From Rhizobium sp. CB3090 (GTDB taxonomy: Bacteria > Pseudomonadota > Alphaproteobacteria > Rhizobiales > Rhizobiaceae): 64,000 nt of DNA. Every line of letters starts with the position of its first letter. The stretch's first letter is position 1. A program made the position numbers and the translations under genes. The notes under the pieces are model-generated. The model ran no database searches. It saw only the letters and a list, made by a program, of their open reading frames with translations, and was not told the DNA's origin. The stretch is from contig NZ_CP121665.1 of NCBI RefSeq assembly GCF_029714285.1, positions 1-64,000 of the forward strand, given 5' to 3'. This document shows, one piece after another, positions 2,238 through 40,779 of the stretch.

Positions 2238-2242
2238 GACGC

Positions 2243-2300
2243 AAAAAGAAAAGAGCCCCCTCAACGTTGCCGTCGCGGAAGCCCTTCTGTCTCTGTAGCA
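2243..2300 (-). ncRNA. Antisense counter-transcribed RNA between repB and repC (incA/ctRNA)
   Basis: repABC plasmids encode a small antisense RNA in the repB-repC gap that lowers repC expression and sets copy number. On the minus strand this gap has a promoter-like pair (2306-2334). About 45 nt further on is a G-rich hairpin: AGGGCTTCC (2277-2285) pairs with GGGGGCTCT (2252-2260) through several G-U pairs. It is followed directly by TTTTCTTTTT, a good intrinsic terminator. The predicted RNA is about 55 nt. The transcript ends are inferred. Confidence 0.75.
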
Positions 2301-2305
2301 AGAAC

Positions 2306-2334
2306 AGAATCGCATTTCCTCGAATCCTCGTCAA
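2306..2334 (-). promoter_or_regulatory. Predicted sigma-70 promoter of the antisense RNA
   Basis: On the minus strand, TTGACG (2334-2329) and GATTCT (2311-2306) are separated by exactly 17 bp. This places a start site near 2300, just upstream of the predicted ctRNA. The -10 element is weak, but the spacing and position fit the known arrangement in repABC operons. Confidence 0.55.
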
Positions 2335-2393
2335 GAGTCTTTGGCACCGTTTTGGTGAGCAAATTTCGTTTGCCTGCTGAAAGGTAAGAGACG

Positions 2394-3608
2394 ATGCAAA
2401 CGGGAAATGTGACGACGCCCTTCGGGCGGCGGCCGGTTTCGCTTGCCCTGGTGAGACGGCAGCAAGCTGCCGTAGAAATCAAGGCAGGTAAGTCGGCCGA
2501 GAAATGGAAAATCTTTCGCGACGTCTCTGCGGCGATGGCGCCGCTCGGCATTCAGTCGAACAGCCTCGCAGTACTCGATGCGCTTTTGAGCTTTTATCCG
2601 GACAACGAGCTGCGCCAGGACGCGCAGCTGATCGTATTCCCTTCGAATACACAGCTGTCGTTGCGAGCTCATGGAATGGCAGGATCGACTCTGCGGCGCC
2701 ATCTCGCCGCACTTGTCGAAGCTGGTTTGATCATTCGAAAGGATAGCGCCAATGGCAAGCGCTACGCCCGCAGGGATGACGATGGCGACGTCGAAAGCGC
2801 CTTCGGTTTCGATCTATCCCCGCTTCTTTCCCGTGCTGAAGAACTCGCGATGCTGGCGCAGCAGGTCGTCGCGGAGCGCGCCGCCTTCCGGAAGATGAAA
2901 GAGAACCTGACGATCTGCCGGCGTGACGTGCGCAAGCTGATCACCGCGGCGATGGAGGAAGGCGCAGAGGGCGATTGGCAGGCCATTGAGGACATCTATG
3001 TAGCGCTGATTGCACGCCTCCCGCGCACGCCGTCGATAGCCGACGTCAACGGAATCCTCGAAGAAATGCAGATGCTGAAAGAGGAAGTACTCAACCGGCT
3101 GGAAACTCAGGAAAAATTAGAAAATCCAGGCGCCAATGGCGCCCAAATCGAGCAGCACATACAGAATTCAAAACCCGAATCCATCCATGAACTTGAACCT
3201 TGCTCTGAAGACAGGCGGGGGGCAAAATCGAGCAAGCCAACTAGGACGGAGAGGGAAGGGTTGAAGGCATTTCCGCTTGGCTTGGTTTTGAAGGCGTGCC
3301 CGCAAGTCTCAAATTACGCCGCCGGCGGTTCGATCGGGAACTGGCGTGAATTGATGTCCGCGGCTGTTGTCGTTCGCTCGATGTTGGGCATCAGCCCATC
3401 GGCTTATCAGGAGGCTTGCGAAGTCATGGGGCCGGAAAATGCGGCCGTCGCCGTTGCCGGCATCCTGGAGCGAGCAAACATGATCAACTCGCCCGGCGGG
3501 TATCTCCGTGAACTGACGCGACGCTCCGAGCGTGGACAGTTTTCACTGGGGCCGATGATCATGGCCTTGTTGAAGGCGAATGGTGTTGCGCAAAGCCGAG
3601 TGGGGTAG
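2394..3608 (+). CDS. repC: RepC, replication initiator of repABC plasmid
   Basis: RepC is the replication initiator of repABC plasmids; in this family the origin usually lies inside repC itself. The protein has 404 residues. The N-terminal half has the RepC signature (FGRRPVSLALVRRQ near the start, then a winged-helix region with SLRAHGMAGSTLRRHLAAL at about 85-105). The C-terminal domain includes SNYAAGGSIGNWRELMSAA. A GAAAGGTAAGAG sequence before the ATG can serve as ribosome-binding site. It follows repB after the ctRNA gene. Confidence 0.96.
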   Translation: MQTGNVTTPFGRRPVSLALVRRQQAAVEIKAGKSAEKWKIFRDVSAAMAPLGIQSNSLAVLDALLSFYPDNELRQDAQLIVFPSNTQLSLRAHGMAGSTLRRHLAALVEAGLIIRKDSANGKRYARRDDDGDVESAFGFDLSPLLSRAEELAMLAQQVVAERAAFRKMKENLTICRRDVRKLITAAMEEGAEGDWQAIEDIYVALIARLPRTPSIADVNGILEEMQMLKEEVLNRLETQEKLENPGANGAQIEQHIQNSKPESIHELEPCSEDRRGAKSSKPTRTEREGLKAFPLGLVLKACPQVSNYAAGGSIGNWRELMSAAVVVRSMLGISPSAYQEACEVMGPENAAVAVAGILERANMINSPGGYLRELTRRSERGQFSLGPMIMALLKANGVAQSRVG

Positions 3609-8367: not shown

Positions 8368-10497
8368 ATGGCTCAGGCCACATCGAAAATCACCCTCAGT
8401 GCAGCCCGCGACATTCCCTTCAACAAACTGGTGCTCAGCCAGCAGAACGTCCGCAAGATCAAGGCGGGCGTCTCGATCGAAGATCTGGCGGAAGACATCG
8501 CCCATCGCGGGCTGCTCACCAGCCTCAACGTCCGCCCGGAACTCGACGGTGATGGCAACGAGACCGGCATATATCGGATCCCGGCGGGCGGGCGCCGTTA
8601 TCGCGCCCTCGAGCGTCTTGTGGCGCAGAAGCGTCTGGCCAAGACTGCCGGGGTTCCCTGCATCGTCAGCAAGGGCGAGACCCTCGAAGTCGAGGATTCG
8701 CTCGCTGAAAACGTCCAGCGCGTATCCGTGCATCCGCTCGATCAGTTCCGCGCCTTCCAGACCTTGCGTGAGCAGGGGTTGGGTGAGGAGGAGATCGCCG
8801 CGCGCTTCTTCGTCTCGGTTGCGACAGTCAGGCAGCGCCTGCGGCTGGCCTCCGTCTCGCCGCGGCTTCTTGATCTCTATGCCGAAGACGAGATGACGCT
8901 CGAGCAGATCATGGCGTTTTCGATCACCAACGATCCTGTTCGCCAGGAGCAGGTCTGGGACACGGTCTCGCGGTCGCATAGCCGGGAGCCGTACTACATC
9001 CGCCGACTGCTGACCGAAACCGCGATCCGCGCTAGCGACCGCCGCGCCGTTTATGTCGGTGTCGAAGCCTACGAGGCCGCTGGCGGCGTCGTGATGCGGG
9101 ATCTGTTCGACCAGGATCAGGGCGGATGGCTGCAGGATCCGGCGCTGCTGGAGCAGCTCGTGATGGAAAAGCTGAAGGCCGACGCCGAGGCGATCCGCGT
9201 GAGCGAAGGCTGGAAGTGGGTCGAAGCAGCCTTCGACTTCCCCTACGGCCACACATCCGGCCTGCGGCGCTTCTACGGCGATCAGGCCGAAATGACGGAA
9301 GACGAACTGGCCCGCTATGACGCCGCCCGCGCCGAATACGACAAGCTCGACGCAGAGTACGCGGAGGCGGACGAGTACTCGGAAGCGACCGAACAGAAAC
9401 TGGAGGAGCTTGGTATCGAGCTCGACCGGCTCAACGACCGTCCACACATGTTCGATCCGCAGGAGGTCGCCCGCGGTGGGGCCTTCGTCTCGCTCGGCGT
9501 GGGTGGCGAGCTCAAGATCGAGCGAGGTTTCGTGCGGCCCGAGGACGAACCGAAGGATGAAGCCGATCCCTCGGCTGATGCCGGCGATGGTGCCGATTAT
9601 GCCAGCAGCCTTCCGGCAACCGGAGCCGCCGGCGGCGAGGTTACCCAACCGGATGACGAGGACGACACAATCAAGCCGCTTCCCGACCGTCTCGTTCTCG
9701 ATCTCACGGCAGCTCGCACGATCGCTTTGCGCAATGCGCTGGCGAACAACTCGGTCATCGCCTTCATCGCGGTCCTGCATGCCTTCGTCCTGAAGACCTT
9801 CTACGTCTACGGCTCGGATTCGTGCCTGGAGGTGACACTGCAGAGCGCTCGCTTCAGCCAGACGCCCGGTCTCGGCGATACGGTCTGGACGAAGGAGATC
9901 GAGCAGCGGCAGGAAGCCTGGGGCCAGGATCTGCCCAAGGATCCAAACGATCTCTGGGATTTCCTGATCGAGCTCGACGAGGTCAGCCGGCAGGCGCTGT
10001 TTGCCCATTGCGCCTCGTTGTCGGTGAACGCGGTGACCGAACCCTGGAACAAGCGGACCCGGGCGATCGCCCATGCCGAGCAGCTGGCTCGCTCGATCGG
10101 CTTCGACATGGTGAAAGCCGGCTGGACGGCGACCGCCGACAACTATCTCGGCCGCGTCACCAAAGCGCATATCCTGCAGGCCGTCCGGGAAGCCAAGGGC
10201 GACCAGGCCGCGGAACTGATCGGCCATCTCAAGAAGACCGACATGGCCCGCGAGGCCGAGCGGCTGATGACAGGCTGCGGGTGGCTGCCGGAACCGCTTC
10301 GCATGCCGGTCGAAAGCGGCATCAACCAAAGCGACGCTGTCGCCGATGATGCCTCAGTCGGATCCGATGAGGGCGAGACCCCCTCGCAGCTCTCCAACCT
10401 GCCGGCCTTCCTCCTCGACCAGCCCGAAACATCGGACGACGACACGCAGGATATGGAAAGCGGGATCGACGGCGAGCATCTCGCCGCCGCCGAATAG
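8368..10497 (+). CDS. Large ParB/RepB-like DNA-binding plasmid protein
   Basis: A 709-residue protein of the ParB/Spo0J superfamily, separate from the RepB of the repABC cassette. The ParB N-terminal domain (about 14-110) has the signature IPAGGRRYRALERL and ENVQRVSVHPLDQFRAF. A KorB/ParB helix-turn-helix follows (IAARFFVSVATVRQRLRLA). The rest is an acidic linker (about 310-450) and a C-terminal region of unknown fold. GGAG precedes the ATG. Such long ParB-like proteins are common on rhizobial plasmids beside DUF932 and strawberry-notch genes. A role in gene regulation or plasmid maintenance is likely but unproven. Confidence 0.85.
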   Translation: MAQATSKITLSAARDIPFNKLVLSQQNVRKIKAGVSIEDLAEDIAHRGLLTSLNVRPELDGDGNETGIYRIPAGGRRYRALERLVAQKRLAKTAGVPCIVSKGETLEVEDSLAENVQRVSVHPLDQFRAFQTLREQGLGEEEIAARFFVSVATVRQRLRLASVSPRLLDLYAEDEMTLEQIMAFSITNDPVRQEQVWDTVSRSHSREPYYIRRLLTETAIRASDRRAVYVGVEAYEAAGGVVMRDLFDQDQGGWLQDPALLEQLVMEKLKADAEAIRVSEGWKWVEAAFDFPYGHTSGLRRFYGDQAEMTEDELARYDAARAEYDKLDAEYAEADEYSEATEQKLEELGIELDRLNDRPHMFDPQEVARGGAFVSLGVGGELKIERGFVRPEDEPKDEADPSADAGDGADYASSLPATGAAGGEVTQPDDEDDTIKPLPDRLVLDLTAARTIALRNALANNSVIAFIAVLHAFVLKTFYVYGSDSCLEVTLQSARFSQTPGLGDTVWTKEIEQRQEAWGQDLPKDPNDLWDFLIELDEVSRQALFAHCASLSVNAVTEPWNKRTRAIAHAEQLARSIGFDMVKAGWTATADNYLGRVTKAHILQAVREAKGDQAAELIGHLKKTDMAREAERLMTGCGWLPEPLRMPVESGINQSDAVADDASVGSDEGETPSQLSNLPAFLLDQPETSDDDTQDMESGIDGEHLAAAE

Positions 10498-11333: not shown

Positions 11334-12418
11334 ATGAACACTCTCGCTCCCACCACTCAGACCGTTCCCTCCGCCTTCAAGGTCGATATCTCGCGCGGCG
11401 AGAGGATCGCCCGCGTGTCGTCGGAATGGTTTTCGCGTCCTGATGATGAACGCTTCCTGTCACTGACCGATCTCTACGACACCGTTCGATCCCGCGCCGA
11501 GCGCGCCCATGCCAGAACGATCGAGAGCGCTGCGATCCGGGTCGAAGCGACGCGCGACAATGCGGAGCGGCTTGAGCTTCTCGTTCCGGGTCAGCGTCAA
11601 GCGATCGCACCGACCCATTGGAGCTACGGCCAGCTCTGCAGCCTCGTTCGCGCACCCGCCACCTATATGCGGCAGCTGCCAGCGCCGCTTGCCGCGATCA
11701 ACCTGCAGCACGGCCTGCTCAACCACCGTGCCGAGCTCGTCAAGACGCTCGAGATGGACGATCGGCGGCTTGAACTACGAGCCGTCACCGGGCCCGAATA
11801 CGGCCGCATCTGGGACCATGAACTGGTCTCCGCCGTGATGAAGATCGCCGGCAACGGGACCGGCGACACGATGTGGAAAGTGCCGGGTCAGCTCGATTGG
11901 GCAACGATGACCCACAATCCCTTCGTCGACATCACCAAGGATACGACGACGCTTTACGCCAGCGACCGGGACGTTTTCCTGTTCCTGGTGGACGACACCC
12001 ATCCGATCGAAGCCGGACGATTGCCGAATGGCGAGCCGGATCTCTATTTCCGCGGCTTCTATGCCTGGAACTCCGAGGTCGGCTCGCAGACGCTCGGCAT
12101 CGCCTCCTTTTATCTGCGGGCGGTCTGCGCCAACAGGAACCTCTGGGGCACAGAGAATTTTGAAGAAATCACCATCCGCCACTCGAAGTTCGCCGCCCAA
12201 CGATTTGCGCATGAGGCAGCACCCGCGCTCACCAGCTTTGCCAATTCGTCGCCGGCGCCCTTCATCGCCGGCATCAAGGCGGCGCGTGAGCGGATCGTCG
12301 CGCGCAAGGACGACGATCGCGAAGTGTTCCTGCGTCGTCGCGGCTTCTCAAAGGGCGAGACCGGCAAGGTGATCGAGATGGTGCTGTCGGAGGAGGGGAG
12401 GCCGCCCGAGTCGATCTT
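11334..12418 (+). pseudogene. DUF932 family protein, 5' part, split by a mobile element
   Basis: The first 361 codons of a DUF932 family (phage/plasmid-type) protein. It begins MNTLAPTTQTVPSAF after AAGGAGA. Conserved stretches include LRAVTGPEYGRIWDHEL at about 142-158 and FYLRAVCANRNLWG at about 260. Near codon 360 the frame enters foreign sequence (the RIT element). Removing 12419-18713 restores an open frame that continues SIFDFVQGITALARTK and ends at 18819, giving a 396-residue protein of normal family length. The unspliced frame ends at 12512 with about 30 junk residues. The function of the family is unknown. Confidence 0.9.
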
Positions 12419-12442
12419 ATGCCGATATCGGCATAAGATCGA
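12411..12442. repeat. Perfect 32-bp palindrome at the left end of the RIT element
   Basis: TCGATCTTATGCCGAT (12411-12426) is followed at once by its exact reverse complement (12427-12442). The palindrome spans the junction between DUF932 codons and the element's terminal repeat. The right end has only one arm, so the extra bases at 12419-12434 exist only on the left. Confidence 0.95.
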
Positions 12443-12529
12443 TTATGCGGAGTATATGATTATGCCGACCACGCCGTGCCAATTGCCGTCATGCTGGGCA
12501 AAATCCAACTGATTTACTCGGCATAATTA
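12435..12529 (+). repeat. Left 95-bp terminal inverted repeat of RIT element
   Basis: It begins AAGATCGATTATGCGGAG and ends ACTCGGCATAATTA. Compared base by base with 18619-18713 in reverse, the two are identical over 95 bp and diverge immediately on both sides. The repeat contains several copies of the motif TTATGCCG/CGGCATAA, probably recombinase-binding sites. Confidence 0.95.
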
Positions 12530-12601
12530 CGGCTCGTTTGACGAGCGAGAACGTGTCACCTTTAGGCTGGAAGTTCTCTGCTTTAAGCTGGGTGCAGGTG
12601 T

Positions 12602-15064
12602 GTGGCACGGACGATCGAACCGTTGAGCGGCGAAGAAATTGAACATGAGATTGGGCGTATCAAGCAACGCTTAGCGGCTTTGGACGCCGAGAAGAACGAG
12701 CTTGAGCGCATCCTCGTGTCGCTTGAGCAGGAGCTGGCGCTTGCCGTTACACGCTCCGACCAAACTGAATTGTTTGTCGGCGCCCCCGTTACCAACAACT
12801 CCCCGGTATCGGAAAAGGTGGCGCTGTTCCGCCGCATGTTTGCCGGTCGTATGGATGTTTTCCCTGTCCGATGGGAAAACCGAAAGACGGCCCGCTCGGG
12901 ATATTCTCCGGCTTGCGCCAACGAATGGGCAAAGGGGCTGTGCGGCAAGCCGAAGATCAAATGCGGAGATTGTCCCCACCAGGCATTTATCCCGCTTTCG
13001 GATGAGATTGTCGAAAGACATCTGCGCGGCGGTGACAGCTTCAGTGCCGGGGATTTTGTCGCCGGGGTATATCCTCTGCTGCAGGATGAGACCTGCTGGT
13101 TCCTGGCTGCCGACTTCGACAAGGAGAACTGGGCCGACGACGCCACCGCGCTTTTGGAAACATGCCGATCCAAGGGGATCGCAGCGGCGCTGGAACGGTC
13201 GAGATCCGGGAACGGCGGACATGTGTGGCTGTTCTTCGACGAGCCTGTGCCGGCACGGATTGCGCGTCAACTGGGAGCCGCGCTGATCACGGAAACGATG
13301 GAGCGGCGCCCGGAGATCGGCTTTGCTTCGTATGATCGGTTCTTTCCCAATCAGGACACGATGCCGGTTGGCGGCTTTGGCAACCTGATCGCTCTTCCGC
13401 TGCAACGAAGGGCGCGGGAAAAAGGAAATAGCGTATTCGTCGACAAGAACTTGCGCCCATATGACGATCAGTGGGCGTTCCTGTCGTCCTTGCCGAGGCT
13501 CTCCGCCGATGCGGTCTTTGAGCTTGTCGATGACGCGGAGAGGTCTGGCCGTGTCCTTGCCGTTCGGATGCCGGTGGAAGACGAGCATGCCGACGAGCCC
13601 TGGCGGATGACGCCGTCCAGGCGCTCCGACATCGGCCGAATAGAAGCTACGCTACCGAAGAGCGTCAAGATCGTTGTTGCTGATCAGGTCTATATCGACA
13701 GGACGGAGATACCGCCAGCTCTGACCACCCGGTTCATTCGCCTTGCGGCTTTCCAGAATCCGGAGTTCTATCGCGCGCAAGCCATGCGTTTGCCGGCCTT
13801 CGGCAAGCCGCGGATTATCTCATGTGCCGAGCTTCACCCTCGGCATGTGGGGCTGCCAAGGGGCTGTCTTGACGAAGCGATCGAACTTCTTAGAAACCAC
13901 GATATCGATGTCGACCTCCAGGACCATCGGGAAGACGGCAAGCAGTTGCCTGCTGGAATCTCCTTCCAGGGAGATTTGCGGCCGCCGCAACTGAAAGCTT
14001 TCGACGCTCTCGTCACTCACGATACCGGCGTGCTTGCCGCGACGACCGCATTCGGAAAAACCGTTCTTGCCGCATCGCTGATTGCTGAACGCGCGCGCAA
14101 TACATTGGTGCTCGTTCACCGTCGAGAACTGCTCGACCAATGGCTGGAACGCTTGCGTTCGTTCCTGAATATCGATCCGAAGCAGATCGGAATTGTCGGC
14201 GGAGGGAAGCGAAAGCCAACCGGAATAATCGACGTTGCACTGATCCAGAGCCTTGTCCGTAAAGGAGAGGTATCGGATCTTGTCGGGGAATACGGGCATC
14301 TCATCGTCGACGAATGCCATCACCTGTCGGCGGCGAGCTTTGAACTTGTGGCGCGCCGATCGAAAGCCCGGTTTGTCCTCGGCCTTTCCGCAACGGTCGC
14401 GCGTAAGGATGGCCATCACCCGATTATCTTCATGCAGTGCGGCCCGGTTCGCCACCGGGTCGGCGCGCAGCAGCAGGCGCTTGAACGAGGCATTCGCCAT
14501 CGTGCACGCGAGCGCTCGACCAAGTTCGAATTGCCGTTGTCACTGGCAATGTCAGAACGCCCCGCGATGCCGGCGGTCTATGCAGCGTTGAGCCAGGATG
14601 CGCGAAGAAACGACCTGATCTTCGACGACGTCCTGAAATCGCTTGAGGCAAAACGCTCGCCAATCGTCTTGACAGAGCGGAAGGATCATCTCGACTATCT
14701 TAGAGACCGCTTCTCGCCTTTCGTCCGCAACCTTGCCGTTCTGCGCGGCGGCATGTCCGCCGCTGAGCGTAAAGCGGCGGAAGCGGCATTGCGGGTACCC
14801 GACGAGCAGGAGCGCCTGATCCTCGCGACGGGCCGCTATATTGGAGAAGGCTTCGACGATCCCCGGCTCGATACGCTATTCCTGACCATGCCGATCTCGT
14901 GGAAAGGCACTTTGGCCCAGTACGTAGGCCGCCTGCACCGACAACATGACGACAAGTTGGACGTTCTCGTCATCGACTATGTCGATGCTGCCGTGCCTGT
15001 GCTGGCACGCATGGCGGCGAAACGGCGCACAGGATATCGGTCCCTTGGCTATAGGCTCGAATAG
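12602..15064 (+). CDS. AEP-type primase fused to superfamily 2 helicase (RIT cargo)
   Basis: An 820-residue multidomain protein. A coiled coil at about 8-45 precedes a Cys-rich patch (CGKPKIKCGDCPH near 117) and an archaeo-eukaryotic primase domain of the TOTE type, with the catalytic-looking FLAADFDKENW near 162 and SGNGGHVWLFF near 201. A Res/DEAD-like helicase follows, with Walker A TTAFGKTVLAA near 482, Walker B VDECHH near 570, and the motif VI region QYVGRLHRQ near 775. I infer nucleic-acid synthesis plus unwinding. Such primase-helicases have been proposed as parts of conflict systems; here it may serve defence or the element's own replication. The start codon is GTG and no strong ribosome-binding site is visible. 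Confidence 0.85.
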   Translation: MARTIEPLSGEEIEHEIGRIKQRLAALDAEKNELERILVSLEQELALAVTRSDQTELFVGAPVTNNSPVSEKVALFRRMFAGRMDVFPVRWENRKTARSGYSPACANEWAKGLCGKPKIKCGDCPHQAFIPLSDEIVERHLRGGDSFSAGDFVAGVYPLLQDETCWFLAADFDKENWADDATALLETCRSKGIAAALERSRSGNGGHVWLFFDEPVPARIARQLGAALITETMERRPEIGFASYDRFFPNQDTMPVGGFGNLIALPLQRRAREKGNSVFVDKNLRPYDDQWAFLSSLPRLSADAVFELVDDAERSGRVLAVRMPVEDEHADEPWRMTPSRRSDIGRIEATLPKSVKIVVADQVYIDRTEIPPALTTRFIRLAAFQNPEFYRAQAMRLPAFGKPRIISCAELHPRHVGLPRGCLDEAIELLRNHDIDVDLQDHREDGKQLPAGISFQGDLRPPQLKAFDALVTHDTGVLAATTAFGKTVLAASLIAERARNTLVLVHRRELLDQWLERLRSFLNIDPKQIGIVGGGKRKPTGIIDVALIQSLVRKGEVSDLVGEYGHLIVDECHHLSAASFELVARRSKARFVLGLSATVARKDGHHPIIFMQCGPVRHRVGAQQQALERGIRHRARERSTKFELPLSLAMSERPAMPAVYAALSQDARRNDLIFDDVLKSLEAKRSPIVLTERKDHLDYLRDRFSPFVRNLAVLRGGMSAAERKAAEAALRVPDEQERLILATGRYIGEGFDDPRLDTLFLTMPISWKGTLAQYVGRLHRQHDDKLDVLVIDYVDAAVPVLARMAAKRRTGYRSLGYRLE

Positions 15065-15123
15065 CCGAGAGATCGGGGCTCCCTTTTGTCTCCGACCTGG
15101 TGAAGAGGCCCCGATACCGTGCG

Positions 15124-16128
15124 CTACGTGGCGTTGCGCAGTTCGGTGAGCACCGCCATCAGCTTATCGGATGGTGGTCGGAAACGACCCTGCTTGATGG
15201 CTGGCGGCGCATGTGCTGCCAGCACAGCCAGCTTGTCGGCGGGATCCGCGCGTAGATAGGCTTCCGTGCTTTGCAAGCTTGCGTGACCGAGCCATAGCGA
15301 CACCTTGCGGACATCGCCGGTCGCGGCGAGCGTGTGCATGGCGCAACTGTGCCGGAGCACATGCGGCGTCACCCGCTTGCCGGACAACGCCGGCCGTTTC
15401 CGGGTGGCGGTAGCAACGTGCAGTGCCAACCGATGAGCGAAGCCGTCCCGGCTCATGCGTTCGCCGTTCCTGCTGAGGAACAGCTCCGGAGTCGAGGCTT
15501 GCGGCCTCACCACGATCCAAGCCCGCAACGCAGCCTGCGTCTCACGCCAGAGCGGCAGGACGCGCTCCCGTCGACCTTTGCCAAGAATGCGAACCATCGA
15601 AAGCGACCGGTCGGAAAAATCGTCGAGACGCAGCGAGAGCAGTTCGGAAACCCGCAGTCCGGCTGCATAGGTCAAGTGCAGCATGGCCCGATCTCGCACG
15701 CCGCCCCAGCTTCGTGGGTCTGGGGCGGAAAGAAGTTCTTTTACCTCTTCCAGTGTGAGGTAATCGATCAACGCCTTGTCGCTTCGCTTCATGGGCAAGG
15801 CTCGTATCCGCAACGCCTGCTCAAGACATGCGGGTGCCTTGTACTCAAGGTAGCGAAAGAATGATCGGATTGCCGCAAAGCGGGCGTTGCGTGATCGGGC
15901 CGCATTGCCACGTTCTCCTTCGACATGATCAAGGAACGCCAGAACCAGGTCCGGATCAATCTCCTCGACGGAGAGGTCGGATGGCCGCCGTTTTAGCCGT
16001 CCGGCGGCGAAACGCACCAGGAGAGCGAAGGCGTGAGCATAGGTGGCGATCGTATGCGGGCTGGCGTTACGTTCTCGAGGGAGGTGCTCTCGTAAGAAGG
16101 CCGTCAGCAAGGGAGCGAGAGCCGTCAT
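15124..16128 (-). CDS. ritC: Third tyrosine recombinase of the RIT trio
   Basis: A 334-residue tyrosine site-specific recombinase. The SAM-like N-terminal domain (about 8-105) and the catalytic domain (about 120-320) are complete. Catalytic residues visible are the Arg in AAGLRVSELL, the HxxR of TPHVLRHSCAMH, the second His in LWLGHASLQ, and Tyr in STEAYLRAD. Its start overlaps the stop of the second recombinase by 4 bp. It is last in a three-gene minus-strand operon that converges on the primase-helicase gene, with only 59 bp between the stops. Confidence 0.93.
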   Translation of the reverse strand: MTALAPLLTAFLREHLPRERNASPHTIATYAHAFALLVRFAAGRLKRRPSDLSVEEIDPDLVLAFLDHVEGERGNAARSRNARFAAIRSFFRYLEYKAPACLEQALRIRALPMKRSDKALIDYLTLEEVKELLSAPDPRSWGGVRDRAMLHLTYAAGLRVSELLSLRLDDFSDRSLSMVRILGKGRRERVLPLWRETQAALRAWIVVRPQASTPELFLSRNGERMSRDGFAHRLALHVATATRKRPALSGKRVTPHVLRHSCAMHTLAATGDVRKVSLWLGHASLQSTEAYLRADPADKLAVLAAHAPPAIKQGRFRPPSDKLMAVLTELRNAT

Positions 16129-17039
16129 GGCAGTTCCTCCCCGAACAGTTGCTCACTCGCGGCAGCAATGTTGTGCATCAGAACGGGCGTCGCCTCCAGA
16201 TACCAGTAGGTATGCGCGATATCCGAATGGCCGAGATAGGTGCTGAGTGCCGCCATGTGATGAGCGACGGCTTGCCGGTCATGAGCGCAGGCTTCGAGCG
16301 AGCGGACTGCAAAGGTATGGCGCAAATCGTGCAGGCGCGGCCCCGGCGTTCCTGTCGGCCCCCGAAACCCGAGCTGCCGGGCGATCCGCACAAACGTCAC
16401 GTGTGCTGTTACCTTACTGGGGGCATAGCCGGTTCTGAGAGCGAACAAATCATTGCTGTCACTATCGGCCCTGTTGCGTATGGTGAGATATTCGGCCAAG
16501 GCGCGGCGGGTCGTCTCATGGACTGGTAGCAGCCGGTCCTTGCCGAACTTTCCATTCCGGACGATCAGCCCGTCATCCGTGATGTCGCTTCGCTGCAACG
16601 CCAGAGCTTCCGACACCCGCAGACCGGTTGCTGCCAGAAGGCCAAACAGGTGATGGTAAGTACAGGGACCAATGGAGCCTATATGAGGCAGCTTCAGTGC
16701 CGCTTCCAGGATGGCACGAATCTGATGGGTTTCCAGAAGGTACGGAGCGGGACGCGGCCGTTTGCCGCGACCGAATGCCCCGGCAGGTGGCACTTCGTGC
16801 AATGGATCCTCGGCGTTCAGAAATGCGCAAAACCGCCGGACGGCGTCGTAGCATGATCGAGCGCGAACGGGCGACGAGGCACTCGCACACCAGTCATGGA
16901 TGCGCGTAACGGAAGTGTATCGATCTCCGTGGGCCTCGGCATAACGGGCATAAAGGGTAAGGGTTCGGCTTTGCTCGTCGAATGTCAGACCGAGCCGACG
17001 GTGAAGGGCGACGTAGCGGATGACATTGTCGATCAGCAT
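16125..17039 (-). CDS. ritB: Second tyrosine recombinase of the RIT trio
   Basis: A 304-residue tyrosine recombinase. It has TGLRVSEALALQRSD (first catalytic Arg), RLHDLRHTFAVRSL (HxxR), TYLGHSDIAHTYWYLE (His and the nucleophile Tyr). The gene overlaps its upstream partner by 7 bp and its downstream partner by 4 bp. Such overlaps are characteristic of RIT operons, in which the three proteins are thought to act together. Confidence 0.93.
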   Translation of the reverse strand: MLIDNVIRYVALHRRLGLTFDEQSRTLTLYARYAEAHGDRYTSVTRIHDWCASASSPVRARSCYDAVRRFCAFLNAEDPLHEVPPAGAFGRGKRPRPAPYLLETHQIRAILEAALKLPHIGSIGPCTYHHLFGLLAATGLRVSEALALQRSDITDDGLIVRNGKFGKDRLLPVHETTRRALAEYLTIRNRADSDSNDLFALRTGYAPSKVTAHVTFVRIARQLGFRGPTGTPGPRLHDLRHTFAVRSLEACAHDRQAVAHHMAALSTYLGHSDIAHTYWYLEATPVLMHNIAAASEQLFGEELP

Positions 17040-18583
17040 GACACATCTCCTGGCCAGGGCTGGGCGATCTGCTTGAGCATCGGAACATCGACTTTGGCAT
17101 AGATGGCGGTCGTCGAGGGCGAGCGATGTCTCAGAACAGTTCCCACCGTTTCCAGGCCTGCCCCATTGCGCAGGAGTCTTGTTGCCAGTGAATGACGAAA
17201 CAGATGCGCTCCTGTCGGCACTCCCTCGATTCCGCCACGCGCAAGCACGCGGGACAGGATGTCGGAAATCTGTGATGATGAAGCGAGAGGCGTGAATGGA
17301 GCTTGCAGCCGCAAGAAAATCCGCTCTTCCGCCACAAGTGGCCGGGCCTGCTCAATGTAGGCGAGCAAAGCATCGCCTGCGTCCTGAGGCAATGGCAAGT
17401 TCGCCGATCGGCGTCCTTTCCCGTGCACGCGGATAAGGGCATTTGCCCAGTCGATATCGGAAAAGCGCAGTCGGCAGATGTCGCCAGCGCGCAGTCCAAG
17501 GCGGGCCAGCAACAGGATGATCGCCCGGTCTCTCAAATCCGCCGACGTTGCCTTGCCGCATGACGCAATGATGCGTTCGACGGTGGCCTCGCTGACATAT
17601 CGTGGAAGATTGGATAGTCGCCGTCGTGCGACTGATGGCACAGCATGACATAGCTCCGGCCGGCATTCGTTGCGCGCAGCGAGGAACCGCAGATAGCTTC
17701 GCAGGACCGTTGCGGTCAGCCGTATCGAAGAACGTGAACGGGTCGCCGGCTGGTTCAGCATTATATTGCGAAGGGCCGTCACCTCATAGGAAGCAGGATC
17801 ATCTCCAAGATCGGCTTGCCATCGAGCGACTTCGTACAGATATCGCTCGACTGTATTACCAGTCATTCCGCAATGTCGCTCAAGCCAAATTCGATATGCA
17901 ATAAGCCGGGTATCGCCGACCTCTGGGCTATCATCTATAGCGCGGCAGGCGGGAACCATACCGCCTTCCCTGAGAAAACTCAGGAAACGCTGGGCGCCTC
18001 GGCGGCGCTTCTGTAATCCGGAGACGGCCAGCTTGCCATTCTTACGTCTGAGGCCGCAGCAACAATTGTGACGCGCGAAACGCTCTATCAAAGCGTCATC
18101 GACATCGGCCCATCGCAGACGCGAGACCCGAAGCCATAGGGCGAAATGCTCCGCGGCTGAGAATAGCACGCGATGTGCCCAGGAGCCGTAACCGAGATGC
18201 GTGAGGCGGTCTGCATATCGGGCAAGGTGTTGATTGATATCGTGGACCTCATCCGCGCGACGAATATCACCGCGATCCTCCAGAAACCGGACAAATCGAC
18301 GAACCACGTTGATGTAGTACGGATCCCGGAGCTGTACGGCGCTATAGCGTGGGCAACTACATGCATGATTTGCAAAGCGCCGTACGGTCGACGCATTGAC
18401 ACTGCTGAGTTGGGTTCGGTTCTGATCGAGCCAGAATAAGAAGTGTCGGGCGGCGCTGGAATATCTGAAAATACCGGCCTTGCCGCGCATAGGTGCAAGA
18501 AACTCGGTTACAGCATCGCAAAAAAATGAGTTGGCATGCTCAGCCGGCTTTGGGTCTGATTGGTGATAGGCGTCTAATGGCAT
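17033..18583 (-). CDS. ritA: First, longest tyrosine recombinase of the RIT trio
   Basis: A 516-residue protein with an extended N-terminal region (about 1-210) that includes a Cys-rich stretch (FANHACSCPRYS and ARHNCCCGLRRKNG). A standard core-binding and catalytic domain follows (about 220-515). Catalytic residues are the Arg in LGLRAGDICRL, the HxxR of GAHLFRHSLATR, TVLRHRSPST with the second His, and Tyr in TTAIYAKVD. Its ATG at 18583 lies 36 bp inside the right terminal repeat, so the promoter is probably in or near that repeat and may be controlled by recombinase binding. Confidence 0.92.
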   Translation of the reverse strand: MPLDAYHQSDPKPAEHANSFFCDAVTEFLAPMRGKAGIFRYSSAARHFLFWLDQNRTQLSSVNASTVRRFANHACSCPRYSAVQLRDPYYINVVRRFVRFLEDRGDIRRADEVHDINQHLARYADRLTHLGYGSWAHRVLFSAAEHFALWLRVSRLRWADVDDALIERFARHNCCCGLRRKNGKLAVSGLQKRRRGAQRFLSFLREGGMVPACRAIDDSPEVGDTRLIAYRIWLERHCGMTGNTVERYLYEVARWQADLGDDPASYEVTALRNIMLNQPATRSRSSIRLTATVLRSYLRFLAARNECRPELCHAVPSVARRRLSNLPRYVSEATVERIIASCGKATSADLRDRAIILLLARLGLRAGDICRLRFSDIDWANALIRVHGKGRRSANLPLPQDAGDALLAYIEQARPLVAEERIFLRLQAPFTPLASSSQISDILSRVLARGGIEGVPTGAHLFRHSLATRLLRNGAGLETVGTVLRHRSPSTTAIYAKVDVPMLKQIAQPWPGDVSC

Positions 18584-18618
18584 ATTGATTCCTCAAGGTT
18601 GTTGAACCCGAGGGAGCT

Positions 18619-18713
18619 TAATTATGCCGAGTAAATCAGTTGGATTTTGCCCAGCATGACGGCAATTGGCACGGCGTGGTCGGCATAATCATATACTCCG
18701 CATAATCGATCTT
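18619..18713 (-). repeat. Right 95-bp terminal inverted repeat of RIT element
   Basis: It is the exact reverse complement of 12435-12529. Its outer edge joins directly to the DUF932 codons that restore the interrupted frame. It lies immediately upstream of the recombinase operon. Confidence 0.95.
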
Positions 18714-18819
18714 CGATTTCGTGCAGGGCATCACCGCGCTGGCGCGCACGAAGACCAATCAGGACACGCGCCTCGATCTGGAAGGCAAGGCGAAGAAGCT
18801 GCTGGAGAGCGCCTCCTGA
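18714..18819 (+). pseudogene. DUF932 family protein, 3' part
   Basis: The last 35 codons of the gene split by the RIT element. They read FDFVQGITALARTK and then LDLEGKAKKLLESAS before TGA. In the frame set by the 5' part, the shared 8 bp TCGATCTT joins the two pieces without loss or gain of a base. Without excision this piece has no start codon. Confidence 0.9.
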
Positions 18820-18925: not shown

Positions 18926-19180
18926 ATGGCTATCCCCGATCATTCCCGCGCAAACTTCGACACGCTGTTGCGCGCCGCGTCCGACGGCAATCTTGCTCTT
19001 ATCGAATGCATCGATGCGTCTACACGCGAGCCGCGTTGCGTACTTTGCGCCGTTGGCCGCAACGGCGGCGAATATATCTTCACGCCATTCGGCCATCTCG
19101 CCGATGGCAATCCATACGACGCCTACCTTCCCCCCGATCCCGACGATCCAACCGGCTTCCTTGCGAGCCCTGCAACCTAA
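18926..19180 (+). CDS. Small hypothetical plasmid protein
   Basis: An 84-residue protein beginning MAIPDHSRANFDTLLRAAS, preceded by TCTGGAGAA. It contains CVLCAVGRNGGEYIFTPFGH and ends with an Asp/Pro-rich tail. I recall similar small proteins next to strawberry-notch genes on rhizobial plasmids, possibly the DUF6117 family, but I cannot confirm the name. It probably belongs to the same transcription unit as the genes around it. Confidence 0.75.
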   Translation: MAIPDHSRANFDTLLRAASDGNLALIECIDASTREPRCVLCAVGRNGGEYIFTPFGHLADGNPYDAYLPPDPDDPTGFLASPAT

Positions 19181-19308
19181 CCGCTGACAATCGCCGACGG
19201 TTTTATTGGCATTCCCGATCCCTGCTGGCTGCCCGATTTCGCTCCTCCGACCCGTTCGGCAGGGTGTTGGGCCTCGCCGTTCTTTCCTCACTCATGGAGC
19301 AACCTTCA

Positions 19309-22300
19309 ATGAATATCATCTCGTATCCTCAAAGTGTTTCCGCCCCTTCGCGTTTTGAGACCAAAAGCCGCGCTGACGAACTTATAGAAGCTGCCGGTCG
19401 GATCGCCTCGCTTTTGGAGCAAGGCAAAGTCGTCACTTCAGGCGACCTGCGACAGAACATGATCGAGGCCCTTAGCGGCAGCGATGCCGAAGGCCTCTGG
19501 CTTTGGAAAGACGCCTATGAAGCGACCGAAGCCGCTCAGGTCCTTTTCCTGCGCAAGTTCGGGCCAGCGATCGTTTCCCGCGCGCATTCGCCCCAATCGA
19601 CACTCGCGATGCTGACGAAAGTGGCGAACCTCCTGCCGACCCATAGCCGACGGTCGGAGGAGAGTCGGGCCCTACAGCAATTCTCAACTCCGGTCCCTCT
19701 TGCCTACATCGCATCTCGCGCTGCCGGCATCACGGCCGCTGACGTGGTTCTCGAGCCGTCGGCCGGAACCGGCCTTATGGCGATCTTCGCCGAACTCGCA
19801 GGCGCCCGCCTGGTGCTCAACGAATACGCGGGGATCCGGTGCTCTCTGCTGCAGCGGCTTTTCCCCCATGTTCCCGTCTTCCAACACGATGCCGCACGTA
19901 TCGACGATTACCTCGACCGTTCCATTCGGCCGACCGTGGTGCTGATGAACCCGCCGTTCTCGGCCGGTGTCCATGTGGAAGGTCGCGTCGCCGACGCTGC
20001 CTGGCGGCATCTGACCTCCGCATTCGCTCGTCTCGCTCCCGGTGGCCGGCTCATCGCGATCACCGGCGCGAGCCGTTCTCCCGAGAATCTCGCGTGGCGC
20101 GACGCCTTCGTTCGTCTGCAGGAGCAGAGCACGATACTGTTCACTGCGGCGATCGACGGCAGCATCTACGCCCGTCATGGAACGACAATGGAAACGCGCC
20201 TCACTGTGATCGACAAGATTCCGGCGGGCGATCCGTCGAAGCTCGCAATGTCGAGGGGCACCGCGTCCGATCTGGAAACGCTTCTCGCTTGGATCGCTGA
20301 CCTACCACCTCGCACCCTGGCGAGGGCGCCAGACCCCATTGGAGTGTCCTCCAACGGCATCCTGCGCGCGGACGGGATGCGTCCAGCAGCAGTTGCGGCG
20401 CCGCGGCATCGCGCTGCACCTGTCGATGATGAGGTCATCGAACTGTCCTACGAGCTGCGGGACGCGCAGCCGAAGGACGAGGCCAACGCAGTTGACGGCA
20501 TCTACGAATCCTACCGGCTGCAGTCGATCCACATCTCCGACGCAAGGCCCCATCCCGACAGGCTGGTCGAATCCGTGGCAATGGCCTCCGTCGCACCGCC
20601 GAAGCCGAGTTATCGCCCGCATCTGCCGAAGCGCATCGTCGTAAGCGGCGATCTTTCCGACGCCCAACTCGAAAGCGTCATCTATGCCGGTGAAGCCCAT
20701 TCCGGCTATCTTGCCGGGCACTGGAGCGTCGATACCTCCTTTGACAATCTCAAGGCGGTCGCATCCGACGCGGAAAACGCTGTTCGTTTTCGACGCGGGT
20801 GGTTCCTCGGCGACGGAACAGGCGCCGGCAAAGGTCGCCAGGCTGCCGGCATTATTCTCGACAACTGGCTGAAGGGTCGCCGGCGGCATGTCTGGATATC
20901 GAAGTCCGACAAGCTGATCGAGGACGCGCAGCGCGACTGGAGAGCGCTGGGTCAAGAGAAGCTCCTGGTCACCCCCCTGTCGCGCTTCCGGCAGGGCAAG
21001 CCGATCAAGCTTGAGGAGGGCATCCTTTTCACCACCTTTGCGACGCTGCGCAGCGATGAGCGCGAGGGCAAGCGGTCACGGGTTCAGCAGATCGTCGATT
21101 GGCTCGGGAACGATTTTAATGGTGTCATCGTCTTCGATGAAGGCCATGCGATGGCCAATGCCGCCGGCGGCAGAACCGAGCGCGGCGAAAAGGCCGCATC
21201 GCAACAGGGCAGGGCAGGGCTCCGGCTGCAGCGTGCCCTTCCGGGCGCCCGTGTCGTCTATGTCTCTGCCACCGGCGCATCGGAAGTGGAGTCGCTCGCC
21301 TATGCCGAGCGCCTCGGCCTTTGGGGCAGCAGTGACTTTCCCTTTCCGACGCGCTCTGAGTTCATTGCCGCAATCGAAGATGGCGGTGTCGCTGCGATGG
21401 AAGTTCTGGCGAGAGACCTGAAGGCCATGGGCCTCTACGCATCGCGCTCGCTCTCCTTCGAGGGCGTCGAATACGAGATCCTCGAGCACGAGCTTACCGA
21501 GGAACAGATCCGCATCTACGACTCCTATGCAGAAGCGTTCCAGGTGATCCACAACCATCTCGATGCCGCGATGGAAGCGTCCGGCATTACTGGCAAATCC
21601 GGGACGCTGAACAAAAATGCCAAGGCTGCCGCGCGCTCCGCCTTCGAAAGCTCGAAGCAGCGCTTCTTCAATCACTTGCTGACATCGATGAAGACGCCGG
21701 CCCTTCTCAAAGCCACCGCCAACGATCTCGAGGAAGGCCGTGCGGCCATTGTCCAACTCGTCTCGACGGGGGCAGCGCTGACCGAACGCCGGCTGGCACA
21801 GATCCCGACCGAGGAATGGGGCGATCTGCAGGTCGACGTGACGCCGCGGGAATATGTCATCGACTACCTGATTCACTCTTTCCCGGTACAGCTTTTTGAG
21901 GAATTTTCCGACGCTGACGGCAATCTCAGCTCGCGGCCGGTTCATGATGCGGACGGCAAGCCGGTGATCTGCCGGGAGGCCGAACGGCGCCGCGACGAAC
22001 TGGTCGAAACACTGGGAAGCCTGCCGGCGATCCCGACCGCCCTCGACCAGATCGTCCAGCATTTCGGAACCGAGAAGGTGGCCGAGATCACCGGCCGCTC
22101 TCGCCGCATCGTTCGTCGTGAGGACAGCACTTCCATTGTGCGCTATGCCGTTCAGAACCGGCCGGGCAGCGCCAATCTCGACGAGGCCCGTGCCTTCATG
22201 GACGACGAGAAAGCCATTCTCGTCTTCAGCGATGCCGGTGGAACCGGCAGATCCTACCATGCGGATCTTGCCGCCAAAAATCAGCGCCTGCGCTTGCATA

Positions 22301-23661
22301 ACCTTCTGGAAGCCGGATGGCGAGCCGACGTGGCGATCCAGGGTCTCGGGCGCAGTCATCGCACCAACCAGAAGCAGCCGCCGCGCTTTCGGATGATCGC
22401 CACCAATGTCAAGGCAGAACGGCGCTTCCTCTCGACCATCGCCCGGCGTCTCGACACGCTCGGCGCCATCACCCGTGGTCAACGCCAGACCGGCGGTCAG
22501 GGGATGTTCCGATCCGAGGACAATCTCGAATCGCAATATGCCCGCGACGCGCTGCGGCAATTCTACGGACTGCTGCATGCCTGCAGGATCGAAGGCTGCT
22601 CGCTGAATAAGTTTGAGGGCATCACCGGCCTGTCGCTGACCTCGGAGGAGGGAGGATTGAAGGACGAGCTGCCGCCGATCCAGACCTTCCTGAACAGAAT
22701 GCTGGCGCTGACCATCGCGATGCAGAACGTGCTGTTCGAAGCCTTTGAGCAACTTTTGGCGGCACGCGTCGAAGGAGCGATCGCCGCCGGCATCTACGAC
22801 AAGGGCCTGGAGACGATCACCGCCGACAGCATGACGGTCACCGACCGCCGGCTGATCTACACGCATCCGGTCACCGGCGCGCAGTCGCACCTGCTGACGA
22901 TCGAACGCAGGGATCGCAATGCACCGATGCTGCTTGACGATGTGCGGGCGCTGGTCAGGCAGGACGCACGCGCCAAGCTGATGATCAACGGCAAGTCGGG
23001 CCGGCCGGCGGTGATGGTCCCGACGCGCTCGATCATGCTGGACGACGGTTCGGTCCAGCCGCGCGTGTCGTTGATCCGGCCTATGGATGAGCTGCGCTTC
23101 GAAGTCCGGCAACTTGAAGAGACCAACTGGGAGGAGGCCGACGAACAAGCGTTCGCCCTTGCCTGGAATACCGAGGTCGCAGCGGTGCCGGAATTCTCGA
23201 CGTCGACGATGCACATCGTCAGCGGGTTGTTGCTGCCGATCTGGAAATTGCTGCCGCAGGATTTCTGCCGGGTGCGGCGGCTGCAGACCGATGACGGCGA
23301 GCGGATCGTCGGCCGGGTCATCGCGCCGGATCGGCTCACCGGCCTTTGCCGCAACTTCGGGATCGATCAGACGGAAGTGCTGAGCGCTGACCAGGCCTGG
23401 GCGTCGCTAGTCGACGGATCCTCTATCGTCGGCCTCGCCGGCGACATGACGCTCCGCCGCGTGCGCGTCATGAACGAATACCGCGTCGAACTGACTGGCT
23501 TCACGGATGGCATGCGCGAGTGGTTGCGCTCGGTGGGACTGTTCTCCGAGATGATCAATTGGAAGCTGCGCTTCTTCGTGCCGGCGACAGATGAGGGTGC
23601 GGAGATCCTGTCGAGGCTGATCGAGCGTCATCGCCTTGTCGATGTCGCGCGCCGGTCATGA
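19309..23661 (+). CDS. Methyltransferase/strawberry-notch-type helicase fusion
   Basis: A 1450-residue protein. The N-terminal domain is an adenine-type DNA methyltransferase fold: VLEPSAGTGLMAI at about 146 (SAM-binding) and LMNPPFSAGV at about 211 (NPPF catalytic motif). A strawberry-notch-type SF2 ATPase follows, with Walker A GDGTGAGKGRQ near 501, FDEGHAMAN near 609 and the helicase C-terminal motif QGLGRSHRTNQ near 1011. The C-terminal third is unassigned. I take the ATG at 19309, which follows ATGGAGCAACC and matches the usual N-terminus; a longer frame exists. Family members occur on large plasmids and phages. An anti-restriction or DNA-processing role is plausible but unknown. Confidence 0.9.
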   Translation: MNIISYPQSVSAPSRFETKSRADELIEAAGRIASLLEQGKVVTSGDLRQNMIEALSGSDAEGLWLWKDAYEATEAAQVLFLRKFGPAIVSRAHSPQSTLAMLTKVANLLPTHSRRSEESRALQQFSTPVPLAYIASRAAGITAADVVLEPSAGTGLMAIFAELAGARLVLNEYAGIRCSLLQRLFPHVPVFQHDAARIDDYLDRSIRPTVVLMNPPFSAGVHVEGRVADAAWRHLTSAFARLAPGGRLIAITGASRSPENLAWRDAFVRLQEQSTILFTAAIDGSIYARHGTTMETRLTVIDKIPAGDPSKLAMSRGTASDLETLLAWIADLPPRTLARAPDPIGVSSNGILRADGMRPAAVAAPRHRAAPVDDEVIELSYELRDAQPKDEANAVDGIYESYRLQSIHISDARPHPDRLVESVAMASVAPPKPSYRPHLPKRIVVSGDLSDAQLESVIYAGEAHSGYLAGHWSVDTSFDNLKAVASDAENAVRFRRGWFLGDGTGAGKGRQAAGIILDNWLKGRRRHVWISKSDKLIEDAQRDWRALGQEKLLVTPLSRFRQGKPIKLEEGILFTTFATLRSDEREGKRSRVQQIVDWLGNDFNGVIVFDEGHAMANAAGGRTERGEKAASQQGRAGLRLQRALPGARVVYVSATGASEVESLAYAERLGLWGSSDFPFPTRSEFIAAIEDGGVAAMEVLARDLKAMGLYASRSLSFEGVEYEILEHELTEEQIRIYDSYAEAFQVIHNHLDAAMEASGITGKSGTLNKNAKAAARSAFESSKQRFFNHLLTSMKTPALLKATANDLEEGRAAIVQLVSTGAALTERRLAQIPTEEWGDLQVDVTPREYVIDYLIHSFPVQLFEEFSDADGNLSSRPVHDADGKPVICREAERRRDELVETLGSLPAIPTALDQIVQHFGTEKVAEITGRSRRIVRREDSTSIVRYAVQNRPGSANLDEARAFMDDEKAILVFSDAGGTGRSYHADLAAKNQRLRLHNLLEAGWRADVAIQGLGRSHRTNQKQPPRFRMIATNVKAERRFLSTIARRLDTLGAITRGQRQTGGQGMFRSEDNLESQYARDALRQFYGLLHACRIEGCSLNKFEGITGLSLTSEEGGLKDELPPIQTFLNRMLALTIAMQNVLFEAFEQLLAARVEGAIAAGIYDKGLETITADSMTVTDRRLIYTHPVTGAQSHLLTIERRDRNAPMLLDDVRALVRQDARAKLMINGKSGRPAVMVPTRSIMLDDGSVQPRVSLIRPMDELRFEVRQLEETNWEEADEQAFALAWNTEVAAVPEFSTSTMHIVSGLLLPIWKLLPQDFCRVRRLQTDDGERIVGRVIAPDRLTGLCRNFGIDQTEVLSADQAWASLVDGSSIVGLAGDMTLRRVRVMNEYRVELTGFTDGMREWLRSVGLFSEMINWKLRFFVPATDEGAEILSRLIERHRLVDVARRS

Positions 23662-40718: not shown

Positions 40719-40765
40719 GGTTCTGCTCCCTGGGAAAAACAATCGCACGAGCGGCAGAGAGAACA

Positions 40766-40779
40766 TTGATAAGGGTCAA
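40766..40779. promoter_or_regulatory. FNR/FixK-type box upstream of the ATPase gene
   Basis: Read on the minus strand it is TTGAC-CCTT-ATCAA, a near-perfect match to the FNR/FixK consensus TTGAT-N4-ATCAA. It is 47 bp before the ATG, close to where an activator site would sit. It implies low-oxygen induction of the original ATPase gene. Confidence 0.65.

Follow-up and report, generated by a model that had tools for sequence, protein, structure and literature searches.

Introduction

The locus described here raises the question of what a gene joining a primase to a helicase does between the ends of a transposon of the RIT type, and whether it has a regular place there. RIT elements were reportedly described by Van Houdt in 2009 and 2012 and by Ricker in 2013. 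In the available text of PMC3414803 and PMC10214605 they appear as bare recombinase trios whose movement has not been shown by experiment. The account in PMC3414803, in the part available, gives overlapping ritA, ritB and ritC genes, a 28-29-bp inverted repeat, a palindrome by the trio and a length of ~3.5 kb, and Table 1 of PMC10214605 lists three coding regions and 34-bp repeats, with movement marked 'NT'. The window, by which we mean the whole 64,000-nucleotide stretch of Rhizobium sp. CB3090 DNA that was analysed, contains an element that likewise has three overlapping tyrosine recombinase genes, inverted repeats and a palindrome, but differs in its length of 6.3 kb, in its repeats of 88-95 bp and in the presence of a primase-helicase gene of 820 aa. 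The length of ~3.5 kb, which is descriptive rather than defining in the available text of PMC3414803, is exceeded owing to this extra gene.

Results and discussion

The insertion and its target site

The window opens with repA, repB and repC (1-3608), and the contig is therefore a repABC replicon. Judged from its sequence, the unit at 12412-18713 (Table 1) is a RIT transposon: inverted repeats enclose a tyrosine-recombinase trio and one convergent gene, and the terminal inverted repeats (TIRs) are accompanied by a palindrome, as in other RIT elements. This confirms the sequence-only reading of the locus as a RIT-type element with a primase-helicase inside its ends, and the boundaries proposed there, 12419-18713, are right for the insertion including one 7-bp target copy. 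The perfect 95-bp inverted repeats that it described are indeed 100% complementary; however, their outermost 7 bp are the target repeat, so that the TIR proper is ~88 bp long.

Table 1. Features of the insertion in the window
Feature	Coordinates	Strand	Evidence or remark
Interrupted target gene, 5' part	11334..12418	+	joins 18714-18819 into 396-aa ORF
Perfect 32-bp palindrome (hairpin), left end	12411..12442	.	includes inverted copy of CGATCTT
7-bp target repeat CGATCTT, left copy	12412..12418	+	direct copy
Left terminal inverted repeat	12435..12529	+	three ATTATGC-type sub-sites
AEP (PrimPol)-SF2 helicase passenger gene, 820 aa	12602..15064	+	PF22548, ResIII, Helicase_C; structure; conservation
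RitC-type tyrosine recombinase, 334 aa	15124..16128	-	PF00589; active-site residues
RitB-type tyrosine recombinase, 304 aa	16125..17039	-	PF00589; active-site residues incl. Y278/Y280
RitA-type tyrosine recombinase, 516 aa, first trio gene	17033..18583	-	PF00589; active-site residues
Right terminal inverted repeat	18619..18713	-	mate of 12435..12529
7-bp target repeat CGATCTT, right copy	18707..18713	+	direct copy
Interrupted target gene, 3' part	18714..18819	+	completes 396-aa ORF

When the insertion is taken out together with one copy of CGATCTT, a 396-aa ORF is restored, homologues of which run uninterrupted across the insertion point in two related loci (L064, 85% identity over residues 8-396; L028, 74% over residues 14-396). 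Neither the intact homologue in L064 nor the left part of the interrupted gene had a Pfam or NCBIfam match, and a candidate assignment to DUF932 was therefore dropped. An inverted copy of CGATCTT lies at 12435-12441, within the left-end hairpin. Folded as DNA, a 38-nt stretch containing this hairpin gave -15.6 kcal/mol (z -8.4), with none of 200 shuffles as good, and the hairpin has comparable counterparts in relatives. A 150-base query from the left end had no match in the 6.49-Mb genome beyond the two repeats and its own palindrome.

The recombinase trio

The claim of three overlapping tyrosine recombinase genes was borne out, since PF00589 was found in all three products and the genes overlap by 7 and 4 nt, within the 4-8 bp typical of RIT elements. 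The names RitA, RitB and RitC were given by gene order, size and relatives, not by the Famint 1, 5 and 2 models. Every one of the R/H-Y residues expected of the three recombinases of a RIT element is present in the window. In the tyrosine-recombinase family, the catalytic residues are R, K, HxxR, H and Tyr. All of them are kept in 13 of 13 aligned relatives of RitA and of RitC, and the same holds for R, K, HxxR and H of RitB. The tyrosine in the usual place of RitB (Y280) is kept in 12 of 13, whereas Y278 is invariant in the 13, and the window RitB has both. The RitB of L016 has His at the usual Tyr position and the invariant Tyr two residues earlier. The RitB nucleophile may thus sit elsewhere than the family pattern places it. 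The available text of PMC8138268 gives RitA two core-binding domains and RitC an extra C-terminal helix; going by sequence lengths alone, the window RitA, at 516 aa, is a long protein, and 43 residues follow Y291 in RitC.

We propose a recombination in which RitA, RitB and RitC would act on the ATTATGC-type sub-sites of the inverted repeats, so that all 6.3 kb would be moved together, with 6-7 bp of spacer or target repeat and with a hairpin at one of the ends. This recombination could perhaps proceed via one strand, by analogy with what is proposed for SE elements, for which the available text of PMC10214605 describes a 6-bp spacer carried along and copy-out-like movement. In SE elements, GInts and Tn554, as here, several tyrosine recombinases act together; those systems, however, have the partners Tfp/GinC and Srap/GinD/TnpC, whereas the window element has only its trio and the primase-helicase.

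The primase-helicase gene

The primase-helicase gene lies tail to tail with the minus-strand trio, inside the element ends. The DxD motif (D171, D173), the catalytic His (H207) and a match to the CAPP fold place its first part with the AEP/PrimPol family, and the Walker A motif (GKT485-487), the DExH box (DECHH570-574), Helicase_C and a fold match place the second with the XPB/RadD-like SF2 helicases. An archaeo-eukaryotic primase with a DFD motif, joined to an SF2 helicase within 820 residues, is what had been read from the letters; D171/D173, PF22548, ResIII, Helicase_C and the fold all agree with it. The PADLOC PrimPol model also matched, with an E-value of 2.4e-92 over residues 69-384. The enzyme activities are predicted from the fold, and the AlphaFold model has a pTM of 0.53, at which the domain arrangement is unreliable. 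In all eight pairs for which it was computed, dN/dS lay between 0.07 and 0.16 and the motifs were kept; on these rates the gene is under purifying selection.

The assignment of the gene to the TOTE type was not upheld. TOTE conflict systems, in the available text of PMC12458937, consist of TPR, OB, TBP and Effector. The window AEP domain does match the Pfam family AEP-TOTE, but it is the only part that does, and none of the four genes of the element encodes TPR, OB or TBP; a TOTE system was ruled out for the element by the absence of these partner genes. The CRISPR-associated PrimPols (CAPP) also differ, in that the AEP of the window is fused to an XPB/RadD-like helicase and the element has no CRISPR genes. 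The primase-helicase module CCPol-MP/Cch2 of SCCmec resembles it in bringing primase and helicase functions to a recombinase-mobilised element, but in the available text of PMC7581432 the polymerase of that module belongs to the A family and has a partner protein, and the helicase is separate.

Among the titles and abstract openings listed in literature searches, we found none that reported RIT elements with a primase or a helicase; an earlier description may exist in Ricker 2013 (Plasmid). The RIT account in the available text of PMC3414803 makes no mention of a passenger gene, and a cargo of this kind in RIT is likewise not described in the available text of PMC10214605, PMC8138268, PMC12458937, PMC10293859, PMC8649781 and PMC7581432.

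Recurrence of the passenger in two RIT lineages

A search of genome contigs yielded at least 574 confirmed relatives of the primase-helicase, the best 80 loci of which were analysed (L numbers). Two or three trio genes adjoin the primase-helicase gene in 12 of these 80, of which 11 have all three and one (L012) runs off its contig; remnants are found in 3, at least 3 kb of room but no trio in 42, and insufficient room in 23. The 42 loci with room but no trio indicate that the gene is not tied to RIT, and some of them have a RIT-type end (L003, L004, L011, L020, L022). The inverted repeats of L004 look like decayed RIT ends; a 37-bp inverted pair in L009, considered as RIT ends, was rejected, as it looks like DUF736-type coding sequence. 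In 15 of the 80 loci, the 400 bp upstream of the gene contained a RIT end motif, defined as two ATTATGC-like units 8-12 bp apart, and 3 loci had it downstream; 80 windows taken farther away in these loci would be expected to give 0.11. Some of the tested loci had served to define the motif, and the count is therefore more a description than an independent test. The sequence-only reading had proposed to look for homologues beside recombinase trios and RIT repeats, and such homologues were found in two RIT lineages; the absence from other RIT elements that it had named as refuting is therefore excluded. This recurrence and the background of the motif rule out a chance capture.

In the first lineage (RIT-A), found in the window, in Rhodobacterales and in Brucella daejeonensis (L028), the order is TIR, primase-helicase (+), trio (-), TIR. 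In the second (RIT-B), found in Bradyrhizobium, Tardiphaga, Mesorhizobium, Rhizobium, Ochrobactrum, Agrobacterium, Shinella and Aminobacter, the order where complete is primase-helicase (+), DUF736 (-), trio (+), DUF736 (+), with TIRs outside where they were read (L006, L087, L109). Comparison of L109 with the passenger-free L122, which has perfect 793-bp repeats, shows that the passenger splits the left repeat into an outer part of 96 bp and an inner part of 678 bp. In L011, the passenger stands alone, without a trio, between ~89-bp RIT-B-like repeats, and a target repeat looked for there was not found. Damaged RIT-B copies include L112, with shortened recombinase genes, L107 and L108, with IS66 in ritB, and the remnants L009 and L014.

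One DUF736 gene lies inside each long inverted repeat of RIT-B (L109:5640-13455, L087, L121, L122), and RIT-B was found inserted in a DUF736-type gene on the one side checked in L007, L009, L087 and L109; it seems that RIT-B brings along copies of the gene family broken by its insertion. In L025, a 781-bp imperfect inverted repeat lies outside the element (8668-9448 vs 16338-17118).

In a survey of 385 genomes of the class with strict E-value limits, RitB was found in 9 and the primase-helicase in 8, both counts including the window's genome. Three other genomes have both (hypergeometric 2e-4), on different contigs, which points to shared hosts rather than shared elements. Among plasmids, 16 of the best 60 of 639 RitA records were also among the best 60 of 285 primase-helicase records. 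A phage gene was also considered, and seven relatives were found in viral_contigs.

Exchange between lineages

A tree of RitB and RitC was built from 34 rows, of which 25 were labelled for carriage of the primase-helicase and 9 were unlabelled; the rows were fetched largely because they carry it, so the tree gives no carriage frequency. The window pairs with a passenger-free Methylocystis element (97/94), then with passenger-free elements of Paraburkholderia and of sphingomonads (97/98). Next to be added are the Rhodobacterales-type carriers (98/99 for the union), and RIT-B, in which carriers are mixed with non-carriers, stands apart. At least four gains or losses of the passenger are forced on the 25 labelled rows. 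In the tree of the primase-helicase (93 rows, quick method), the Rhodobacterales and RIT-B proteins group together (SH-aLRT 97) and the window lies somewhere outside this group. The two trees conflict, which implies that the passenger has passed between RIT lineages, and synonymous divergence agrees with such exchange: for L109 and L110, dS is 0.28 for the passenger vs 0.08 for RitB and 0.06 for RitC, while for L087 and L109 it is 0.32 vs 0.73 and 1.14.

Alternatively, the gene might be a neutral passenger that was trapped between the ends once and has been inherited since. The ten trio rows of the Rhodobacterales-type carriers (nine Rhodobacterales and one Brucella daejeonensis) do form one clade, as this would predict, although these rows were fetched for carriage. 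We consider it highly improbable in view of the low dN/dS and the kept motifs, the at least four gains or losses on the trio tree, the two different positions relative to the trio, and the unit in L011, which kept the passenger but not the trio. Taken together, these comparisons show the AEP-helicase to be a standing passenger of at least two RIT lineages that moves with the trio and has been exchanged between them.

Homes outside RIT elements

The same primase-helicase family is found in sphingomonad Tn7-like elements (TniA/TniB/TniQ), whose transposases are presumably of the DDE type. There, unlike in RIT, the gene stands in line after tniQ, following tniA-tniB-tniQ in L037, L041 and L116 and, with a gap, in L039. 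The row in these four loci (L116:179-8448 and the others) begins with a gene for a hypothetical protein ahead of tniA, and the primase-helicase gene overlaps or abuts tniQ in all except L039. It is also located beside tni genes in L035, L084 and L085, has neighbours of the resolvase family and of DUF4158 in Pantoea, and is present in loci without a recognised transposase. The word 'primase' is absent from the main text, as far as available, of a survey of Tn7 target selectors (PMC10293859).

Movement with and without the passenger

Several pairs of near-identical copies lie in diverged plasmid DNA. On pDSHI01 and pDSHI03 of D. shibae, 6295-bp copies that differ by one base (99.98% identity) are inserted in opposite orientation inside sno (strawberry-notch), whose flanking DNA is 90-91% identical. 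The available text of PMC3414803 speaks of two identical RIT copies in D. shibae, which are probably these (L082 and L083). The same arrangement recurs on plasmids p3 and p4 of Gemmobacter, which share 6341 bp at 99.98% in opposite orientation, with flanks at 82.5-83%. Between L016 and L019, which come from two genera, 6284 bp match at 99.75%, inverted, the two flank matches of greatest length being 83.6-85% identical. Near-identical copies of ~6.3 kb in diverged flanks indicate that passenger and trio move as one. Passenger-free RITs with full trios also exist (L117-L122), and two plasmids of Sphingobium sp. YBL2 hold a passenger-free RIT of 3705 bp at 100% identity, oppositely oriented within sno DNA that is 70-75% alike. 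A RIT without the passenger therefore moves in the same way, and the passenger is not essential for transposition. In the same strain, a second tyrosine-recombinase trio lies beside the passenger-free RIT, between two parts of sno (L143:359-3944). To the bare trios of the available text, these data add pairs of near-identical RITs, some carrying the passenger and some lacking it, that occupy one and the same gene in either orientation on plasmids that have diverged.

These observations bear on the possibility that the primase-helicase is a replication helper, which would prime and unwind a nicked or single-stranded copy-out intermediate and raise copy number or insertion without being essential. 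The activities predicted from the fold would allow this, and hairpins occur at one end in both RIT lineages. Both ends were read in seven copies (L016, L017, L028, L082, L083, L114, L115), and in these the hairpin is always found towards the 5' end of sno, in either orientation of the element; L025 has no hairpin on either side. Furthermore, the overlap or abutment with tniQ in L037, L041 and L116 means that two unrelated transposition machines keep the gene, and there are precedents, by analogy, in the SCCmec primase-helicase module and the SE movement cited above (available text of PMC7581432 and PMC10214605). The position at tniQ, however, fits a transposition helper and a passenger alike. 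The full trios of the passenger-free RITs, the movement of the 3705-bp copy and the perfect 793-bp repeats of L122 all speak against a replication helper, as does the presence of the gene in loci without a recognised transposase. We regard it as rather unlikely, and the movement in Sphingobium sp. YBL2 made us rate it slightly lower than before.

The choice of target offers another role, in which the primase-helicase would bind single-stranded or stalled DNA and steer insertion into conjugating or replicating DNA. TnsE steers Tn7 insertion in a like manner. The targets are indeed plasmid-type genes, namely sno for the Rhodobacterales RIT-A elements, DUF736 for RIT-B and a conserved repABC-replicon gene in the window, although many loci came from a plasmid collection and the plasmid bias is partly due to sampling. 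The occurrence of the same gene beside tniQ in Tn7-like elements is also in keeping with such a role. However, sno, which is a repeated target in both orientations for elements with the passenger (L016, L017, L019, L028, L082, L083, L114, L115), also has passenger-free RITs in or beside it (L117, L119, L120, L143), so that site choice does not require the passenger; we consider a targeting role very doubtful. The window's own sno (19006-23661) is intact at the site used by the sno-inserted RITs.

A more speculative and quite unlikely proposal is that the primase-helicase forms a second, semi-independent RIT module. Units with RIT ends and the passenger alone, such as that in L011, would then be moved in trans by the recombinases of resident RITs and would recombine through the shared inverted repeats, producing the split left repeat of RIT-B and the swaps between lineages; the enzyme would prime and unwind a hairpin-ended one-strand intermediate while the element enters a conjugating plasmid, and RIT would be a transposon of the copy-out type that brings its replication enzyme with it.

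A possible conflict function

The activities of the enzyme suit replication and conflict equally well. The sequence-only reading had offered two functions. Copying of the element by its own primase-helicase has lost weight, given that some RITs lack the gene and that one of these moved; mobile defence appears to be favoured by the gene neighbourhoods. In 56 loci that lack an intact trio we scanned 256 neighbour ORFs, of which 142 belong to 32 distant loci and 114 to 24 nearer loci; five of the nearer loci (L002, L007, L014, L020, L022) have RIT-type ends or remnants. AbiEii was found in 6 of the 114 ORFs of the nearer and 3 of the 142 of the distant loci, while 3 of the 142 matched the R subunit of type I restriction and 3 of the 114 matched SNF2, all counts without a random-gene control; plasmids commonly carry toxin-antitoxin and restriction genes. 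TPR, OB and TBP were not among the best 25 of 121 and the best 25 of 91 families in these 256 ORFs. The order AbiEi, AbiEii, primase-helicase, SNF2 occurs in L018 (8088-15101) and L045 (8110-15093) and is partly kept in L033, which is incomplete upstream; it represents a possible four-gene conflict locus.

It is most likely that the passenger is a conflict gene with a selective value of its own, because it has several vehicles, lies among toxin-antitoxin and restriction genes at some of its locations outside RIT, and is absent from RITs that move. We give an even chance to its being a DNA-processing conflict or defence gene for which RIT is one of several vehicles. Such a gene would help the element, the plasmid or the cell against competing DNA such as phages and incoming plasmids, and to this end it would bind foreign or stalled DNA and remodel it. 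With a standing passenger that is under purifying selection and also occurs in unrelated Tn7-like elements, the unit offers a concrete system for studying the movement of DNA by three recombinases and the role of AEP-helicase fusions on mobile DNA.

Other genes near the primase-helicase and in the window

In three loci, a convergent gene lies directly downstream of the primase-helicase gene (L030:4992-7339, L036:2572-4850, L035:12531-13958), with a second gene beside it in L030 and L036; three proteins tested from these downstream genes had no Pfam match. In others, an AAA_14/DUF4143 ATPase gene occupies the position directly downstream (L031 by Pfam, L044 and L048 by tblastn, and L064 by a weak match). 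Elsewhere in the window, 38511-40766 encodes a P-type ATPase that is closest to magnesium transporters, with a match below the cut-off of that model, and 29792-31369 encodes the reverse transcriptase/maturase of a group II intron.
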